Shown: positions 10,218-19,730 of the stretch, one piece after another
Layout of the letters: every line of letters starts with the position of its first letter
Numbering within the stretch: the first letter of the stretch is position 1
IMG/VR virus record: IMGVR_UViG_3300007734_000607
Span: 1-34,310 of that record
DNA: 34,310 bases
Strand: one strand, 5' to 3'
DNA from: a virus
Translations under genes and position numbers: made by a program
The notes under the pieces: generated by a model
Seen by the model: only the letters and a program-made list of their open reading frames with translations
Database searches by the model: none
Told to the model about the DNA's origin: nothing

Positions 10218-10537
10218 GCTGAGAAGATGCCTACCGCCATGACTTCAGACCCAGCGCCTGTTGTAATCTTCCAAGCGCCGTTTTGACTGATTGCGTTGAT
10301 CTCGACGTTATACACACCAATGCCGCCGCCTGGTGAGTTTGGCAGAATAGTGTGCGTCAAGATGCCTGCGCCTGTGCCGTCAACGATTTGAACTGCCGCC
10401 GTTGCAGCTGTAGCCACGGTAATGACGATGCGGTGCAGATAATCACCAACTGCGCCTGTGCCGCCTAAGACTTGTGCCGACTGGCTTGCTGCAACGTGTT
10501 CGTATTGGTATCTAAAGGGATTCTGTACGCCACTCAT
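10214..10537 (-). CDS. Small conserved virion protein between terminase and portal
   Basis: 107 residues, beta-rich. The block SAQVLGGTGAVGDYLHRIVI (about residues 19-38) followed by an Ala/Thr/Val/Gly-rich body (VQIVDGTGAGILTHTILPNS, WKITTGAGSEVMAVGIFSA) is a pattern seen in many podoviruses and siphoviruses near the terminase and portal, of unknown function. The start overlaps the terminase stop (ATGA at 10537-10534). A decoration or head-fibre role is plausible but unproven. Confidence 0.75.
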   Translation of the reverse strand: MSGVQNPFRYQYEHVAASQSAQVLGGTGAVGDYLHRIVITVATAATAAVQIVDGTGAGILTHTILPNSPGGGIGVYNVEINAISQNGAWKITTGAGSEVMAVGIFSA

Positions 10538-12732
10538 AATCTTCTACTCCGTTGTGTTGTGTGGGTTGCCCACATATCATTCAATGTAACTGTGTTCTCA
10601 GGCCCGACCATCAGCGGCTTGATCGTATCCGGTGCTTTAACCTTCGGCTCTAACCTCCAAGCAATCGCCAACATCCTAAATGCGTCAGCTGGGTGCGAGC
10701 AATTGTGAACAATTGCCCCATTTGCTAAAGAAAATTCGTTTGCATTTGGAACGGTTAAACACCAGACATCATCAGTCTGATTTAACTTTTTGACGCTCTC
10801 TATATCGAGCAGTTGCGGCTTTGTCTGCGCCCCTAGCCCTATACGCTTTAACTTTACAAGCCTCTGTGCAATACTTTTGCATACTTGCTGATTTTCTAAC
10901 CAATGCCATAAATAACACATTGCATTGTAAACACGGCTTTTCTTCTCTTTTGTTTTTTGTCCAAAATTGTTGTCTAGCTGCGTGTCGTTTGTGCCATAAC
11001 CTGCCTTCATCTGATTGATGCCATGCTGTTGCGGAATCTCTAGCGGATTGATTAAATCCTTTTTTAGGATTGGCGTGCCATGTTTCTGAAAGATGTATTT
11101 TTGCGGGTATACATTCAAGGTTGTGCAACTGGTTGTTTTTAGGGTTGCTGTCTTTGTGATGGATGTGACAGCCATCTGGAATAACACCGAACGCTGATCT
11201 CCAAACATCTCGATGCAACTTTTTACCACCTCTTGAAAGGTATTTGTCACTTGGCCATAAACGGTATAAACCGCCATCGAAATACTGCGTAATCGGGTCA
11301 AGGACGATAGGATTTGAGAACCCTTCGTTAGGTTCTCTGCTAATACCCACCCGTTCACCGTTTTGAATAAATGATCCGGCGTACATTTCACCGAATAACC
11401 GTTTGCGAACTCCACCTGCACAAGTTGGGCATTTTTCCTCGTCACACGAGGGTTTGTGTATTGTTTCCAGCCACATGATGTTAGAACCTCTCCAATATTG
11501 GGTAGATTCATTATCTGTTGTGTTCCGTAACGTGTCAATACCATAGTATCACCTGTAAAACACCAATCATGCCGTGGCGTTTGCCTAAATGCTTTCTTGT
11601 CCTCGTCGTATTCCCGCTGATATTGCCTGAGTGCCTCTAGTCCATCGTGCGTGCGTTCTGCATCAAACCAACACATCGGCAGCATCTGTCTGACCGCCTG
11701 AATCCCGTCTTGCACCGACAAATCAGGCACAATCGCCATGTTGTTGATGCCTAGATACTCACTCAATTGCTCAATAACCGACTTGCCCGCAGCTGCTAGT
11801 GTTTTAGCCCTAGCGTCATGCGGTAGGTAATGTTTACCGTAAATATACGGCTTTTCTACGACTATTTTAGCTATTTCTGCAATATTTGCACCAGATATTG
11901 CAAAATAATCTATTACATGAATTTCGTTACGCACGACTTGATACCACCAAATCGCCGTGTCATCTCGATAGCCTAAGTCCCAAGCCGTGTGCGTAGGTAT
12001 GTGCGGATCGTAGTCAACACGCCTAACCTGTCCGGCCTCGGTCACTTTGCGTAAGTCTTCGCCATAAAAAGCGCCGACAATGGCAGCTTCAAATGAGCAT
12101 TGAAACTCTTGCAGAAATTGGTCTTGAGAAATCTGTGCGGCCGCGGCTTTGAGTTCTGCTTCGGGCAACAGTCCAGATTCGGATGCTTTTAAGACAAGGT
12201 GAAACCACTCATCAGGTGTGCGCCTAGCTGTTTCGTATATGTCCCAAAACTGATTTTTGCCCTTTGGAGTTCCCGCAAAGACTGCCCAACCCTGTTTGTC
12301 GGACAATAAGGGTCTGATTACGTTTCCCCAGACTGACGGTCTAAAGTCACCGTATTCGTCCATGAACACGCCATCAAGACCAACTCCCCGCATGGCATCG
12401 GCATTGTCTGCACCAAAGAGTCGTATCTTGGCGCCAGTTATAAGTTCAACCGTCAGCTCGGCCTCATTGCTCGATGCGAGGACTGGTGCTGCAAAGCGTT
12501 TGATATAGTCCCAAGCCACGGACTTAGCTTGGCTGCGAAACGGTGCAATGTAGGCAAATAATGGGCTTTCAGTCTTGCACATGAGTGCGGCACGGATAAT
12601 GTCGTTAATTGCTGCGACAGTCTTGCCTGCGCGACGGTGGGCAACTAGACAAGCCCAGCGCTCGGTGCGGTTGTGAAACGATTTGAACGCTGCCCGTGGT
12701 TTATACGGGATTGTTTCTACTCGTCTTGCCAT
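10534..12732 (-). CDS. Terminase large subunit with in-frame intein
   Basis: 732 codons. The ATPase half has Walker A (CLVAHRRAGKT, ending at residue 38) and Walker B (GVFMDEYGDF, 121-130). The nuclease half has AWDLGYRDDTAIWWY (250-264) and ends with the last RuvC-type motif CSHPADAFRML (678-688, Asp683). Residues 391-677 are an intein, so the spliced protein would be about 445 residues, normal for a terminase. The enzyme packages and cuts DNA at the portal. Its start overlaps the small subunit gene by 16 bases, and its stop overlaps the next start (ATGA). Activity should require splicing, because the intein separates the last catalytic motif from the rest. Confidence 0.93.
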   Translation of the reverse strand: MARRVETIPYKPRAAFKSFHNRTERWACLVAHRRAGKTVAAINDIIRAALMCKTESPLFAYIAPFRSQAKSVAWDYIKRFAAPVLASSNEAELTVELITGAKIRLFGADNADAMRGVGLDGVFMDEYGDFRPSVWGNVIRPLLSDKQGWAVFAGTPKGKNQFWDIYETARRTPDEWFHLVLKASESGLLPEAELKAAAAQISQDQFLQEFQCSFEAAIVGAFYGEDLRKVTEAGQVRRVDYDPHIPTHTAWDLGYRDDTAIWWYQVVRNEIHVIDYFAISGANIAEIAKIVVEKPYIYGKHYLPHDARAKTLAAAGKSVIEQLSEYLGINNMAIVPDLSVQDGIQAVRQMLPMCWFDAERTHDGLEALRQYQREYDEDKKAFRQTPRHDWCFTGDTMVLTRYGTQQIMNLPNIGEVLTSCGWKQYTNPRVTRKNAQLVQVEFANGYSVKCTPDHLFKTVNGWVLAENLTKGSQILSSLTRLRSISMAVYTVYGQVTNTFQEVVKSCIEMFGDQRSVLFQMAVTSITKTATLKTTSCTTLNVYPQKYIFQKHGTPILKKDLINPLEIPQQHGINQMKAGYGTNDTQLDNNFGQKTKEKKSRVYNAMCYLWHWLENQQVCKSIAQRLVKLKRIGLGAQTKPQLLDIESVKKLNQTDDVWCLTVPNANEFSLANGAIVHNCSHPADAFRMLAIAWRLEPKVKAPDTIKPLMVGPENTVTLNDMWATHTTQRSRRL
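10702..11562 (-). mobile_element. Intein inserted in terminase nuclease motif
   Basis: The intein covers terminase codons 391-677. The splice junctions are HDW/CFTGD and IVHN/CSHPAD. Block A is CFTGDTMVLTRYG with Cys1. Block B is VEFANGYSVKCTPDHLF with the T-x-x-H pattern (Thr451, His454). Block F is DVWCLTVPNANEFSLANG and block G is the terminal His-Asn followed by Cys. The roughly 175 residues between the splicing blocks carry no LAGLIDADG or HNH motif in this frame. An HNH endonuclease is encoded there in another frame (10772-11476). The insertion lies a few residues before the last catalytic Asp, in the most conserved part of the gene, as homing elements usually do. Confidence 0.93.
10772..11476 (-). 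CDS. HNH homing endonuclease nested out of frame in the intein
   Basis: 234 codons in a different - strand frame from the terminase/intein. The core is KKLHRDVWRSAFGVIPDGCH (85-104) then IHHKDSNPKNNQLHNLECIP (105-124), the typical HNH motif of phage homing endonucleases. The C-terminus carries a zinc finger (C182-x2-C185, C203-x3-C207) followed by AYRARG. GGAGAGG lies about ten bases before the ATG at 11476, so it can be translated on its own. Residues 1-56 overlap the coding of intein blocks A-B, so a later start (Met31 at 11386) is possible. It ends just where the C-terminal splicing domain begins. It probably drives homing of the intein by cutting intein-free terminase genes. Confidence 0.82.
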   Translation of the reverse strand: MWLETIHKPSCDEEKCPTCAGGVRKRLFGEMYAGSFIQNGERVGISREPNEGFSNPIVLDPITQYFDGGLYRLWPSDKYLSRGGKKLHRDVWRSAFGVIPDGCHIHHKDSNPKNNQLHNLECIPAKIHLSETWHANPKKGFNQSARDSATAWHQSDEGRLWHKRHAARQQFWTKNKREEKPCLQCNVLFMALVRKSASMQKYCTEACKVKAYRARGADKAATARYRERQKVKSD

Positions 12733-13880: not shown

Positions 13881-14141
13881 TCACAATGCTAAAACATCGT
13901 CAATAGACTCAATTCTAACAAAAATACCACCTTTCCAATCGTTTTGCCACTCAATTTGCTGTGGTGTAAATTTTGCTTTGTTGTCCCGTTTGATCTCAAA
14001 CAGGTAAGTAACCCCATGTTTCCCTGCTAATAAATCTGGGCAACCTTTGCCTACGGCTGACAAATCGGTGACAGAAAACCCTAATTGTCGCAGCGCAGCA
14101 ACAATTTCTTTTTGATTAACGTCAACTCGTTTAGCTTTCAA
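13881..14141 (-). CDS. VRR-NUC-type nuclease
   Basis: 86 residues starting at a TTG (14141) that overlaps the stop of the upstream nuclease (TTGA). It carries the PD-(D/E)XK core as GKGCPDLLAG (31-40, Asp36) and YLFEIKRD (46-53, Glu49 and Lys51), followed by KFTPQQIEWQNDWKGG. This is the compact phage VRR-NUC layout, related to Holliday-junction resolvases. It probably resolves branched DNA before packaging. It pairs with the Ref-like nuclease just upstream. Confidence 0.87.
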   Translation of the reverse strand: MKAKRVDVNQKEIVAALRQLGFSVTDLSAVGKGCPDLLAGKHGVTYLFEIKRDNKAKFTPQQIEWQNDWKGGIFVRIESIDDVLAL

Positions 14142-14404
14142 ATTAGCGCCTCTGTCTGGGCTAATAAATCTTCTTCTGTAACCCCATACTTTTGAGCAAA
14201 CGCCTTTTTGCCCAATCCGTGTACCCCATCATTGCCCACATGATGAGTCGGGCATAACGGTATAACCGGCGAATTTTCACGCTTCATTCCTAACCGTCTA
14301 ATGTGATGGATGTGGGCCGGCGTTTCCCCGTATCCCAAGTGCCTGCAAAGTGAACATCCAAGGTTAGCCAGTTTCTCAAAGTGTTTACGCTGCGCTTTGG
14401 TCAA
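14138..14404 (-). CDS. RecA-dependent (Ref-like) HNH nuclease
   Basis: 88 residues from a TTG at 14404 with AGAGG six bases upstream; the frame is open back to an ATG at 14515, but that would lie over the small gene at 14385-14558. A zinc pair near the N-terminus (LGCSLCRHLG) is followed by the His-rich core (PAHIHHIRRLGMKRENSPVI then PLCPTHHVGNDGVHGLGKKA). This matches the RecA-dependent nuclease family of phage P1 Ref. Such enzymes cut DNA at RecA-made displacement loops. It is coupled to the VRR-NUC gene. Confidence 0.82.
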   Translation of the reverse strand: MTKAQRKHFEKLANLGCSLCRHLGYGETPAHIHHIRRLGMKRENSPVIPLCPTHHVGNDGVHGLGKKAFAQKYGVTEEDLLAQTEALI

Positions 14405-14558
14405 CTTGAGCCTCTGTCCATTCTTGAAGATCAACGACAACAATTTGCATATCAACCGCTGCGTCAGCTGCTGCGTCGAATTTACCCTGCAAGACAAGTT
14501 TGCGGTAATGGGCAATCAACACGGCAATTTTAATCAGGCTTTCAGAATAGTCGATCAC
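14385..14558 (-). CDS. Small conserved helical phage protein (GTG start)
   Basis: A 57-residue gene starting at a GTG (14558) that shares one base with the upstream stop (TAGTG). The sequence starts with DYSESLIKIAVLIAHYRKLV and continues FDAAADAAVDMQIVVVDLQE, then WTEAQVDQSAA: amphipathic helices in a pattern I recognise from small hypothetical proteins of other phages. Its end overlaps the Ref-like nuclease start by 20 bases. The function is unknown. Confidence 0.75.
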   Translation of the reverse strand: MIDYSESLIKIAVLIAHYRKLVLQGKFDAAADAAVDMQIVVVDLQEWTEAQVDQSAA

Positions 14559-14887
14559 TATTTAGTTACCTTCTCTATTTGTGTTGCATGATATTTTTCA
14601 ACTTTCCATGCGTCAAACCTAAGTTGTGCGCTGGTTAGCCGCCACTTTAACAACTCGGCTTTTTCAGTTGCTGCCCCAATTGCATTGCAAAGGTTTTGGT
14701 AATCAGGATGAGCATATGCTTCTCTCTCTTGGGCAGCTGCTGTGGTTTCGCCAGACTTCTTCATCAGGATAGCCTTTAGGCTTGATTTGTACGCTTCTAG
14801 ATGCGCCAGTTCTCCCTTAGCCTTAGCGTAATGAGGTGCGTTGTCCCAAATGTACTCTATAGCAGGATGGGGTGAGTAGTCACTCAT
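14558..14887 (-). CDS. Conserved phage helical protein
   Basis: 109 residues, strongly helical and charged. The middle (LEAYKSSLKAILMKKSGETT, AAAQEREAYAHPDYQNL) and the C-terminal helix (LKWRLTSAQLRFDAWKVEKY) match a conserved phage family of unknown function found near recombination and replication genes. Its ATG overlaps the stop of the methyltransferase-locus ORF (ATGA at 14887-14884). There are no Cys and no enzyme motif. An accessory role in DNA metabolism is inferred from neighbours. Confidence 0.78.
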   Translation of the reverse strand: MSDYSPHPAIEYIWDNAPHYAKAKGELAHLEAYKSSLKAILMKKSGETTAAAQEREAYAHPDYQNLCNAIGAATEKAELLKWRLTSAQLRFDAWKVEKYHATQIEKVTK

Positions 14888-15990
14888 TTAAGCAGCTCCC
14901 ATGCAGTTGCTGCACATAAAGGGACTTGTCCATTTCCAATGGCCTTAAGTCTGTCCACCCTGGCCATTATGTTTTTGTCTGTTCTTGGGACAATCTTCGT
15001 TTCATCCATGCCAATTTGTTTCCGCATTTCCGACTGCACGTTTTCTGTCTGGCTCTTACATAAGTAAATGTCGTTGCACAATAAAGGCAAATCCGATCCT
15101 TTGTGTGATCCTTCCATCTCTCGTTGGCGTGTAGTGTTCCGTGGCATTTGTGGCACAGCGTTGCAATGTTGCTGCTTTGATTGTTTGTTGGGTTGTTGTC
15201 CAAATGATGCCTGTGAAGGGTCGTTGTCCCACCACATCTCTCGCAACTGTTCAGATTTTTGTAAAGTCTTTGTGCTTGTTTCCTTCCAGCGTTGATACTC
15301 TTTTGGGTCAATAGCATTTAAACTACTCCATGTGATAGGCCAATTCATAAGCCATTCTACCCAATTTGGATTCAAATATCCACCATTTACTTGAGCCGAT
15401 ATGACTTCCCCTAAATTGCTTTTCCAATAGTTGTCTTTGGAATTGTTGTGTCGATACAATGCGTGTCTGCTGTCTTGTGCTTTCGGAGTTGGAAATGTTT
15501 TGTTTTTTGGCCCTAATCCAAATCCTCTCTCTGAGATGGTTTGCACCAACGTCGGCAGCTGATACAACGCCCCATTTTGCATCAAACCCCATTTTGGAAA
15601 GGTCTGCAAGGACAACTCCAAGTCCTCTAGAAGTGAGGATTGGGCTGTTTTCCACAAAGACGTATTGAGGTCTAACCTCGCCAATGATCCTTGCCATGTG
15701 TTTCCACATTGAGGATTTGTTTCCTTCAATTCCTGCGCCTTTTCCGGCTGCGCTGATGTCTTGGCATGGAAATCCGCCAGATACAACGTCAACAATTCCT
15801 TGCCACGGGCGTCCGTCAAAGGTTTGAACGTCATCCCAAATCGGGAAAGGCGGGAGAATTTTGTCATTTTGTCTGGCGCACAATACGCTTGCTGGGTATT
15901 GTTCCCACTCAACGGCGCAGACGGTTCGCCATCCAAGCAGATGTCCGCCAAGTATTCCTCCACCAGCGCCTGCGAAAAGAGCCAACTCAT
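14884..15990 (-). CDS. Long ORF overlapping the methyltransferase and HNH genes, ending in methyltransferase motif IX-X
   Basis: 368 codons. The ATG (15990) overlaps the upstream stop (ATGA) and lies four bases after the GTG of the methyltransferase ORF, in another frame. The first part begins SWLFSQALVEEYLADICLDG and includes SRFGMTFKPLTDARGKELL, SLWKTAQSSLLEDLE and, near the middle, LNPNWVEWLMNWPITWSSL. I remember similar overlapping ORFs annotated in other phages, with a tail like WTDLxPLxxDKFQQW, which this one fits in register (WSSLNAIDPKEYQRW). The ORF stays open through the HNH cassette and ends RVDRLKAIGNGQVPLCAATA, the methyltransferase C-terminal motif. Whether it makes a protein is uncertain. 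Confidence 0.5.
   Translation of the reverse strand: MSWLFSQALVEEYLADICLDGEPSAPLSGNNTQQAYCAPDKMTKFSRLSRFGMTFKPLTDARGKELLTLYLADFHAKTSAQPEKAQELKETNPQCGNTWQGSLARLDLNTSLWKTAQSSLLEDLELSLQTFPKWGLMQNGALYQLPTLVQTISERGFGLGPKNKTFPTPKAQDSRHALYRHNNSKDNYWKSNLGEVISAQVNGGYLNPNWVEWLMNWPITWSSLNAIDPKEYQRWKETSTKTLQKSEQLREMWWDNDPSQASFGQQPNKQSKQQHCNAVPQMPRNTTRQREMEGSHKGSDLPLLCNDIYLCKSQTENVQSEMRKQIGMDETKIVPRTDKNIMARVDRLKAIGNGQVPLCAATAWELLK
14959..15331 (-). mobile_element. HNH endonuclease cassette splitting the methyltransferase
   Basis: The 373-base segment lies between the end of the catalytic ORF (about 15331) and the intact motif encoding VDRLKAIGN (14958-14932). It is almost filled by the HNH gene. The bases at 15305-15331 look like a decayed copy of 14932-14958: about half agree codon by codon, more if one gap is allowed. 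Removing 373 bases would rejoin the catalytic frame to RVDRLKAIGNGQVP and give a methyltransferase of about 245 residues, normal for phages. There is little room for an intron core besides the ORF. Confidence 0.5.
14967..15317 (-). CDS. HNH endonuclease in the methyltransferase locus
   Basis: 116 residues in the third - strand frame, different from both methyltransferase-locus ORFs. Motifs are a zinc pair C25-x2-C28, the HNH core TLHRHHLDNNPTNNQSSNIA (33-52), LCHKCHGTLH (54-63) with C55-x2-C58, and a second zinc finger C77-x2-C80 with C94-x3-C98. Basic residues follow. GGAG lies eight bases before the ATG at 15317, and the TAG of the methyltransferase ORF falls between that GGAG and the ATG. 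It probably acts as a site-specific mobile endonuclease; the conserved methyltransferase motif next to it would be the natural target. Confidence 0.85.
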   Translation of the reverse strand: MLLTQKSINAGRKQAQRLYKNLNSCERCGGTTTLHRHHLDNNPTNNQSSNIATLCHKCHGTLHANERWKDHTKDRICLYCATTFTYVRARQKTCSRKCGNKLAWMKRRLSQEQTKT

Positions 15991-15994
15991 TCAC
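15323..15994 (-). CDS. DNA (cytosine-5) methyltransferase, catalytic part (interrupted)
   Basis: 223 residues from a GTG at 15994. The motifs are I LFAGAGGGILGG (6-17), II AVEWEQYPAS (27-36), III PIWDDV (51-56), IV VVSGGFPCQDIS (70-81) with catalytic Cys77, VI VFVENSP (112-118) and VIII ANHLRERIWI (151-160). The end (SKWWIFESKLGRMAYELAYH) is the usual stretch just before the final motif, but a TAG at 15325-15323 stops the frame there. The final motif is present downstream of an HNH gene in another frame. The enzyme would protect phage DNA from restriction. As read, it lacks motifs IX-X and may be inactive unless completed in trans, by frameshifting or by excision. Confidence 0.88.
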   Translation of the reverse strand: MNELALFAGAGGGILGGHLLGWRTVCAVEWEQYPASVLCARQNDKILPPFPIWDDVQTFDGRPWQGIVDVVSGGFPCQDISAAGKGAGIEGNKSSMWKHMARIIGEVRPQYVFVENSPILTSRGLGVVLADLSKMGFDAKWGVVSAADVGANHLRERIWIRAKKQNISNSESTRQQTRIVSTQQFQRQLLEKQFRGSHIGSSKWWIFESKLGRMAYELAYHME

Positions 15995-19123: not shown

Positions 19124-19260
19124 TTTTGCACCTTTGCTAGTTGTTTAAGCATCTCAATTGCATCCTGTAGGTCTTGCATGGCCCTAGCGTCTAAGACCAT
19201 GCCTTCGTACCATTGCTGCAATCGCCAAGAAATAAGTATTGCTTCTTCGGACTGACTCAT
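19120..19260 (-). CDS. Small helical hypothetical protein (46 aa)
   Basis: 46 residues from the ATG at 19260, which overlaps the HNH stop (ATGA). The sequence begins MSQSEEAILISWRLQQWYEG and continues with a helix (DLQDAIEMLKQLAKVQK). Its stop overlaps the exonuclease start (ATGA). The tight coupling on both sides supports translation. No family is recognised; a partner of the exonuclease is possible. Confidence 0.68.
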   Translation of the reverse strand: MSQSEEAILISWRLQQWYEGMVLDARAMQDLQDAIEMLKQLAKVQK

Positions 19261-19688
19261 GCTATTGCCAATTCTTTGTGGCGTTGTTTGTGGCATGGTT
19301 GGCAAAGCCACATAACATCCAACGGTTTGTTGTAATCTTCATGGTGTGCAAGGCTTTTAATTTCGCCGCAACGTACACACGGCATTGGGTCAAGATTGCC
19401 GTTTTTAATTGCCCTAGCAACTGCGTTGTGACATTGTGTTCTGCGTTTGTCTGCAACCCGCCACTCTTGATTGACCCGCAATGCCAACTTAATCCTGTCT
19501 GGCAATTTTGCTCTGCGTTTGTCATATTCTCTAACCTTTTCAATGTTTTTTAACCTATGCTCAAGTGCATCTTTTTTGTTGCACTCTTTGCATTTGTTTA
19601 AATGACCGTCAGCCATTGCGGTGTGTTTGTAAAACTCATTTAACAGCTTGACGGTCTTGCATTTAAAACACGTTTTAGAACGAATCAT
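19257..19688 (-). CDS. HNH endonuclease (free-standing)
   Basis: 143 residues from the ATG at 19688, chosen because AAAGGAG lies six bases upstream; an earlier ATG (19718) lacks this. It has a N-terminal zinc knuckle (KTCFKCKTVKLLNEFYKH, then LNKCKECNKKD) and the C-terminal core MPCVRCGEIKSLAHHEDYNK then WLCQPCHKQRHKE. This two-finger HNH type is common in phages, often inserted between DNA metabolism genes. It lies between SSB and the 46-residue gene. It may be a mobile nuclease or have a packaging/recombination role. Confidence 0.87.
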   Translation of the reverse strand: MIRSKTCFKCKTVKLLNEFYKHTAMADGHLNKCKECNKKDALEHRLKNIEKVREYDKRRAKLPDRIKLALRVNQEWRVADKRRTQCHNAVARAIKNGNLDPMPCVRCGEIKSLAHHEDYNKPLDVMWLCQPCHKQRHKELAIA

Positions 19689-19730
19689 GTTGCACTCCTT
19701 TGCGTGGAATACAACCATTATAGACCCGTT

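Follow-up and report, generated by a model that had tools for sequence, protein, structure and literature searches.

The large terminase gene (TerL) on the minus strand of the window, that is, of the whole stretch analyzed (a record of 34,310 bases from a bacterial virus), is interrupted by an intein, and the same DNA carries an HNH endonuclease gene in another reading frame. This raises the question of whether intein and nuclease gene form one mobile element with two separately made products, or whether the overlap has another cause. The best explanation, to which we assign a probability of about 0.87, is a composite mobile element in which a cis-splicing intein at the TerL nuclease motif harbors, in its linker DNA, a separately expressed HNH homing endonuclease gene one frame over. 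The terminase frame would be translated into a precursor, and excision of the intein would join HDW to CSHPADAF. The HNH protein would arise independently, its translation beginning at an internal ATG preceded by a Shine-Dalgarno (SD) sequence of its own and its transcription probably at an internal sigma-70-type promoter; both signals lie within the codons of the N-terminal splicing domain. The inferred target of this protein is the intein-free terminase allele of a co-infecting virus, which it would cut near HDW/TSHPADAF; repair after the cut would copy the whole element into the empty allele. The anatomy of the intein and of the HNH protein, the constraint in two frames, the conserved start signals and the horizontal gain with co-conversion are read from the sequence; splicing, promoter activity, HNH expression and DNA cleavage are inferred, and there are no expression, splicing or cleavage data.

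Anatomy of the intein and the overlapping HNH gene

The intein corresponds to residues 391-677 of the terminase ORF, begins with C1, ends with HN and is followed by a Cys at position +1 (Table 1). Pfam Intein_splicing matches the terminase frame (1.5e-11), with the N- and C-terminal terminase families on either side, and NCBIfam TIGR01445 (intein_Nterm) lies above its cut-off in the same frame (1.1e-7). The spliced terminase is predicted to have 445 residues, the splicing itself being inferred. An AlphaFold2 model based on 22 intein sequences reached pLDDT values of 83-96 at residues 1-90 and 251-287, compared with 23-49 in the linker (residues 91-246), and Foldseek searches with this model retrieved the DnaB, NrdJ-1 and gp41-1 inteins at about 1e-5.

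The element meets the sequence and structural criteria of a class 1 intein: it possesses blocks A, B, F and G with C1, T61-x-x-H64, H286-N287 and C+1, its Hint fold is built from both terminal parts according to structure prediction and Foldseek, and about 60 uninterrupted homologues are joined in frame. The criterion for an in-frame homing endonuclease is not met, as no endonuclease family of Pfam matched the terminase frame and the region between blocks B and F contains no domain, is disordered and has unconstrained amino acids. Nor does the window hold a split intein or fractured gene, since the intein lies on one continuous ORF. The models predict a Hint fold at both ends of the terminase frame and none between, where the nuclease is encoded in the other frame. 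A group I or other RNA intron was ruled out, as there was no Rfam match at the gathering threshold.

Table 1. Positions of the terminase, intein and HNH features in the window, with the basis of each assignment
Feature	Positions	Strand	Basis
Large terminase (TerL) ORF, 732 aa, single frame open across the intein	10534-12732	-	Terminase_6N 5.8e-5, Terminase_6C 2.2e-4; phrog_2 terminase large subunit 2.1e-33
N-extein, residues 1-390, C-terminal HDW	11563-12732	-	Intein-free alleles 87-97% identical
Intein, 287 aa, C1 to HN; Hint core = residues 1-90 + 251-287	10702-11562	-	Pfam, NCBIfam, structure prediction, Foldseek
Intein block A (CFTGDTMVLTRYG)	11524-11562	-	C1, T6, T10, G13 invariant
Intein block B (GYSVKCTPDHLFKT, TxxH)	11359-11400	-	C60, T61, P62, H64 invariant
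Linker between splicing halves, terminase frame, intein residues 91-246	10825-11292	-	Motif-free, predicted disordered, amino acids unconstrained
Intein block F (DVWCLTVPNANEFSL)	10726-10770	-	As for blocks A, B and G
Intein block G (ANGAIVHN)	10702-10725	-	V285, H286, N287 invariant
C-extein, residues 678-732, N-terminal CSHPADAF	10537-10701	-	+1 Cys; Thr there in all intein-free alleles examined
Promoter-like TTGACA-17-GATAAT in intein codons 9-18, 33 nt upstream of HNH ATG	11510-11538	-	Conservation, 11/12 consensus bases
HNH Shine-Dalgarno GGAGAGG in intein codons G24-E25-V26	11487-11493	-	Residue 25 = GAG/AAG in 58/64 relatives
HNH start ATG, spanning the codons of intein residue 29 (3rd base) and C30 (bases 1-2)	11474-11476	-	ATG in 60/64
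HNH endonuclease ORF, 234 aa, out of frame in the intein; stop just before block F	10772-11476	-	HNH_3 3e-12; phrog_15471 2e-22
Dual-coded stretch, intein residues 42-90 / HNH residues about 13-61	11293-11439	-	Position-specific rates, third-base conservation
HNH catalytic region (HIHHKDSNPKNNQLHNLECIPAKIH)	11093-11167	-	H106, H107, N115, N119 invariant in 30 relatives
HNH zinc finger C182, C185, C203, C207	10856-10933	-	Four cysteines invariant in 30 relatives

The frame of the HNH gene is -1 relative to that of the intein. AlphaFold2 (30 sequences) modelled the HNH protein well from about residue 65, and residues 1-60 with low confidence. A PDB search with the HNH sequence retrieved a single homing nuclease, I-HmuI (E 0.016), which was also the best of the weak matches that Foldseek returned with the model (E 0.09). 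The protein fulfills the sequence-based criteria of an HNH homing endonuclease in having the active-site motif together with a zinc finger as DNA-binding accessory part, and in being sporadically distributed and transferred together with its host element. A conserved CxxC at HNH residues 16-19 is not claimed as a zinc site, because its cysteines are partly dictated by the invariant A45 and V48 of the intein.

An earlier note on this DNA had placed all four splicing blocks in the terminase frame, seen no endonuclease between them and recognized an HNH protein with a zinc finger and its own GGAGAGG and ATG in another frame. HMM matches, invariant residues and the predicted Hint core bear out the first point, the absence of any matching Pfam family and the disordered linker the second, and the HNH_3 match and conserved start signals the third; coordinates, frames and the lengths of intein and spliced product also agree with that note.

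Start signals within the intein codons

The start signals of the HNH gene were compared in 64 non-redundant relatives. Intein residue 29 is occupied by 11 different amino acids, yet the third base of its codon is an A in 63/64. A codon ending in A followed by the TGY codon of C30 creates the HNH ATG, which is therefore retained in nearly all relatives. The SD consensus is GGNGAGG and is kept by strongly skewed codons.

Unexpectedly, third bases hardly vary in intein codons 9-18 either. The relatives share a box of the form TTGAC(A/G)-17 bp-GATAAT, of which the window matches 11 of the 12 sigma-70 consensus bases. Within it, Leu is encoded by TTG in 51/58 cases (background 16%), Arg by CGT in 54/55 (14%), Gly by GGA in 59/63 (13%) and Ile by ATA in 54/59 (14%). 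The third bases of codons 20, 21 and 24 are at background and those of codons 22-23 only modestly biased. Consensus promoter matches are not above chance by count (one in 2.2 kb versus a mean of 3.3 in shuffles), so the case for a promoter rests on the conservation of the box; further exact copies of the block were not found in the window. On these grounds the box is probably the HNH promoter inside the intein codons, its activity being inferred.

Alternatively, the conserved island might be an operator, a site at which the HNH protein binds its own gene, or an RNA element, which would replace the promoter step only and is compatible with all other parts of the proposed mechanism. The spacer bases CGTNACGGA are conserved as well, and since a plain sigma-70 promoter neither reads nor needs them, the box may be or include something else. 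RNAalifold predicted a weak structure with double changes in 3 of 15 pairs. However, the spacing between -35 and -10 is exactly 17 bp, the consensus is almost completely matched, the box is correctly placed before SD and ATG, and third bases between -10 and SD are mostly free. A function other than that of a promoter is thus rather unlikely, without being negligible.

Gain, spread and two-frame constraint of the element

Among the best 80 terminase relatives, about 60 are intein-free and have N-exteins 87-97% identical to that of the window, whereas N-extein identity does not exceed 75% in those bearing an intein. The codons following the intein in the window are TGC-TCG-CAC, as in the carriers L004 and L005. 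In 69 empty alleles a Thr directly follows the insertion point, and TCG was found in 0/69. From CCA-GCT onward, the window equals the empty allele L042. This switch from TGC-TCG-CAC to L042-like sequence corresponds to the expected co-conversion footprint of homing. Moreover, HNH identity is uncoupled from extein identity (both to the window only), with 42% extein and 63% HNH identity in L015 and 67% and 56%, respectively, in L022. The near-identical intein-free terminases together with the footprint indicate a recent horizontal gain, by which the intein would be a recent arrival in the viral group of the window.

Relatives also harbor the element in reduced, split and free states. In L322 (1-650), a mini-intein of the same family has lost the HNH core by a clean deletion; it has kept all splicing blocks and still carries the TTGAC-17-GATAAT box, the SD and the HNH ATG. 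Another mini-intein without HNH (L114) occupies the same terminase motif. In prophages, Firmicutes-type and others (L141, L144, L145, L148 and L149), a TerL-IntN ORF is followed by an HNH ORF and then by a short IntC-TerL ORF, and partial examples of this layout occur in L143 and L146. The HNH gene of these split TerL inteins lies between the halves and overlaps them, apparently as a fractured-gene form of the element. In L138 and in Poludnitsa (L115), a terminase without intein is directly followed by HNH. The evolutionary order of the nested, split, free and deleted states is inference. The deletion in L322 and the HNH genes between split-intein halves support, indirectly, the idea of the earlier note that splicing is uncoupled from homing.

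Packaging-type HNH nucleases are encoded beside terminase genes in many phages. The nested HNH protein could accordingly be a terminase-associated nuclease used by the phage in packaging and not a homing enzyme, as it sits inside the terminase gene and its non-nested relatives in L138 and Poludnitsa also adjoin terminases. This proposal is at odds with the many terminases with near-identical exteins that lack the element, with the reservation that these are mostly partial contigs and HNH elsewhere is not excluded. It also conflicts with the co-conversion footprint, with the loss of HNH in L322 and with the recurrence of the element at almost the same position in terminase families that are unrelated. 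We regard a packaging role as improbable and retain the reading of a homing endonuclease gene nested in an intein.

Nested HNH genes with the identical frame offset were found in at least about 110 distinct public contigs, including viral contigs, isolate phages and prophages of many phyla. Contigs recur between scans and counts derive from the best 80 matches per scan, hence they are not frequencies. HNH is out of frame with the same offset in 28/28 close viral relatives (HNH identity 53-86%); other nested cases are L030-L035, L098 and L119-L124. The isolate phages TJE1, LS06 and Highwayman contain the nested gene, and their records annotate the terminase only. Genomes of bacterial and archaeal bins contributed 13 nested loci, e.g. 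from Bacteroides, Glycomyces, Frankia, Rhizobium, Nitrospiraceae and Anaerolineae. A scan with the intein profile added 73 further loci among the matches listed; all 73 have a long ORF in the HNH frame, and in 72 of them the HNH motif is recognizable by a simple pattern. Around the terminase motif HDWxSHxADAFR, the insertion point varies by a few codons. L098 (2977-5163), whose terminase N-extein is 73% identical to that of the window, contains a distinct intein about four codons further on, with a nested HNH that is shorter and has the same offset. As far as sequence comparison can tell, the nested arrangement is old, common and largely undescribed.

Substitution rates differ along the overlap. 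Upstream of the HNH ATG, where the DNA encodes the intein alone, it is the third positions of the intein codons that evolve fastest (0.40 versus 0.17 and 0.13). Over HNH residues 1-56, all three codon positions are slow (0.25/0.17/0.22). In the HNH domain, the third HNH position is fastest (0.52) and the second slow (0.16); because the former is the second position of the intein codon, the intein amino acids are unconstrained there. Over intein residues 42-90, third bases are strongly conserved over and above codon usage. Roughly 50 codons thus appear to be dual-coded, close to the 56 proposed previously, with the middle under HNH-only constraint and the flanks under intein constraint. The terminase frame had also been suggested to be held open over HNH by selection. 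Synonymous shuffling of the HNH codons of the window introduced a mean of 3.8 stops into it, and only 0.6% of shuffles had none; the expectation was 0.5-4.6 stops in nested relatives, in every one of which 0 were observed, in agreement with that suggestion. In 11 non-nested HNH relatives, the corresponding frame contains 1-12 stops. The effect sizes are descriptive and no exact P values are given, because related sequences are not independent. A chance ORF was ruled out by the HMMs, the substitution rates and the synonymous shuffles.

A -1 ribosomal frameshift, yielding HNH fused to the N-terminal half of the intein and leaving its ATG unused, would account for the constant -1 offset, and 10/61 relatives lack an HNH-frame stop from the intein start to the ATG. 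In the other 51, however, such a stop is present, in 32 of them within 8 codons, and SD and ATG are under selection at the nucleotide level. A constant offset is expected anyway, as the many stops of the third frame (2-27 in nested relatives) would account for the invariable use of this one. Frameshifting is therefore very improbable, and initiation at the internal ATG is preferred. Two frameshifts introduced by sequencing or assembly might mimic the nesting of an HNH that is truly in the intein frame. The relatives have already refuted this for practical purposes: they all share the offset, and both frames are open in the 28 close relatives, in at least 73 other loci, in the three isolate phages and in 13 loci of bacterial and archaeal bins from unrelated projects. 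Neither a broken HNH frame nor frameshift errors, which would have refuted the original claim, were seen in relatives, except for the clean HNH deletion in L322.

Other nuclease-related and overlapping ORFs occur on the minus strand of the window. The N-terminal part of a DNA cytosine methyltransferase (15323-15994, PF00145 3e-31) shares its DNA with an ORF of 368 aa in the +1 frame (14884-15990, phrog_1008). Across 45 sequences, comprising the window and relatives, the +1 frame is stop-free for about 165 codons, save at most one stop at the very start; in 18 sequences tested, synonymous shuffling predicted 2.4-4.2 stops and 0 were observed. This region (14884-15994) is a candidate for a long overlapping gene pair, or for methyltransferase halves in two frames. 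A second HNH ORF (14967-15317, phrog_1271 1e-9) lies in an insertion of about 376 bp (14962-15337) near the methyltransferase C-terminus, which is shared by L229 and L262 and absent from L228, and which, unlike the terminase case, breaks the host frame. An ORF of a RecA-dependent nuclease family (14138-14515, PF16786 6e-9) and a small HNH-like ORF (19257-19718, CVRCGEIKSLAHHEDYNKP...) without Pfam match at 0.001 were also found.

Comparison with known systems

In the usual view of inteins with homing nucleases, one chain has both activities. The intein in the dCTP deaminase of cyanophage CL131 combines HintN and HNH_3, with the nuclease in frame (PMC6293099). It resembles the element described here in its splicing blocks, its HNH_3 type nuclease and its horizontal spread, but its nuclease shares frame and chain with the splicing domain, whereas that of the window does not. 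The TerL inteins of mycobacteriophages likewise share the host gene, the splicing blocks and horizontal spread; they are located in the ATPase domain (PMC5050341), in contrast to the nuclease motif in the window. Here, selfish mobility and splicing would be divided between two proteins from one DNA stretch, each under its own expression control, and this within an essential phage gene and in many bacterial phyla. The locus is a natural long overlapping gene pair with measurable double constraint, whose nuclease is overlooked by annotation pipelines, as its unannotated state in TJE1, LS06 and Highwayman illustrates.

Fractured genes, or split inteins whose halves flank a separate endonuclease, were reportedly described by Dassa et al. 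in 2009. They have in common with the nested element a separately encoded nuclease at the usual nuclease insertion point of inteins. However, the intein of the window is encoded by an uninterrupted ORF and is expected to splice in cis, and HNH overlaps it instead of separating its halves. The nested element suggests a possible origin of split inteins with free endonucleases. Tentatively, and at somewhat less than even odds, the inteins at the TerL nuclease motif may be an ancient, widespread composite class whose cis-splicing intein is overprinted by an autonomous HNH gene with promoter, SD and start codon. Once the linker frame was no longer constrained, split inteins would result, and the nested state would be the missing link that leads from cis inteins to split ones with free endonucleases.

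A literature search found no description of an out-of-frame nuclease inside a true intein; the papers of Gosselin from 2025 and Dassa from 2009 stood outside this comparison. The former, a bioRxiv preprint by Gosselin et al. on non-canonical intein architecture in actinobacteriophages, is cited for overlapping reading frames (in PMC11855218) and may thus have anticipated out-of-frame nucleases in inteins. The closest published precedent is ShiLan (Arsenault, Gosselin and Gogarten 2025, PMC11855218), where an insertion does not close the host frame and encodes a zinc-finger HNH in a second one, and where, as here, a patchy distribution indicates homing. Neither a splicing domain nor a ribosome-binding site is detectable in the ShiLan insertion, which is thought to stay in the protein. 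In the window, by contrast, the host frame encodes a true intein and the HNH gene has a conserved SD, an ATG and a promoter-like box.
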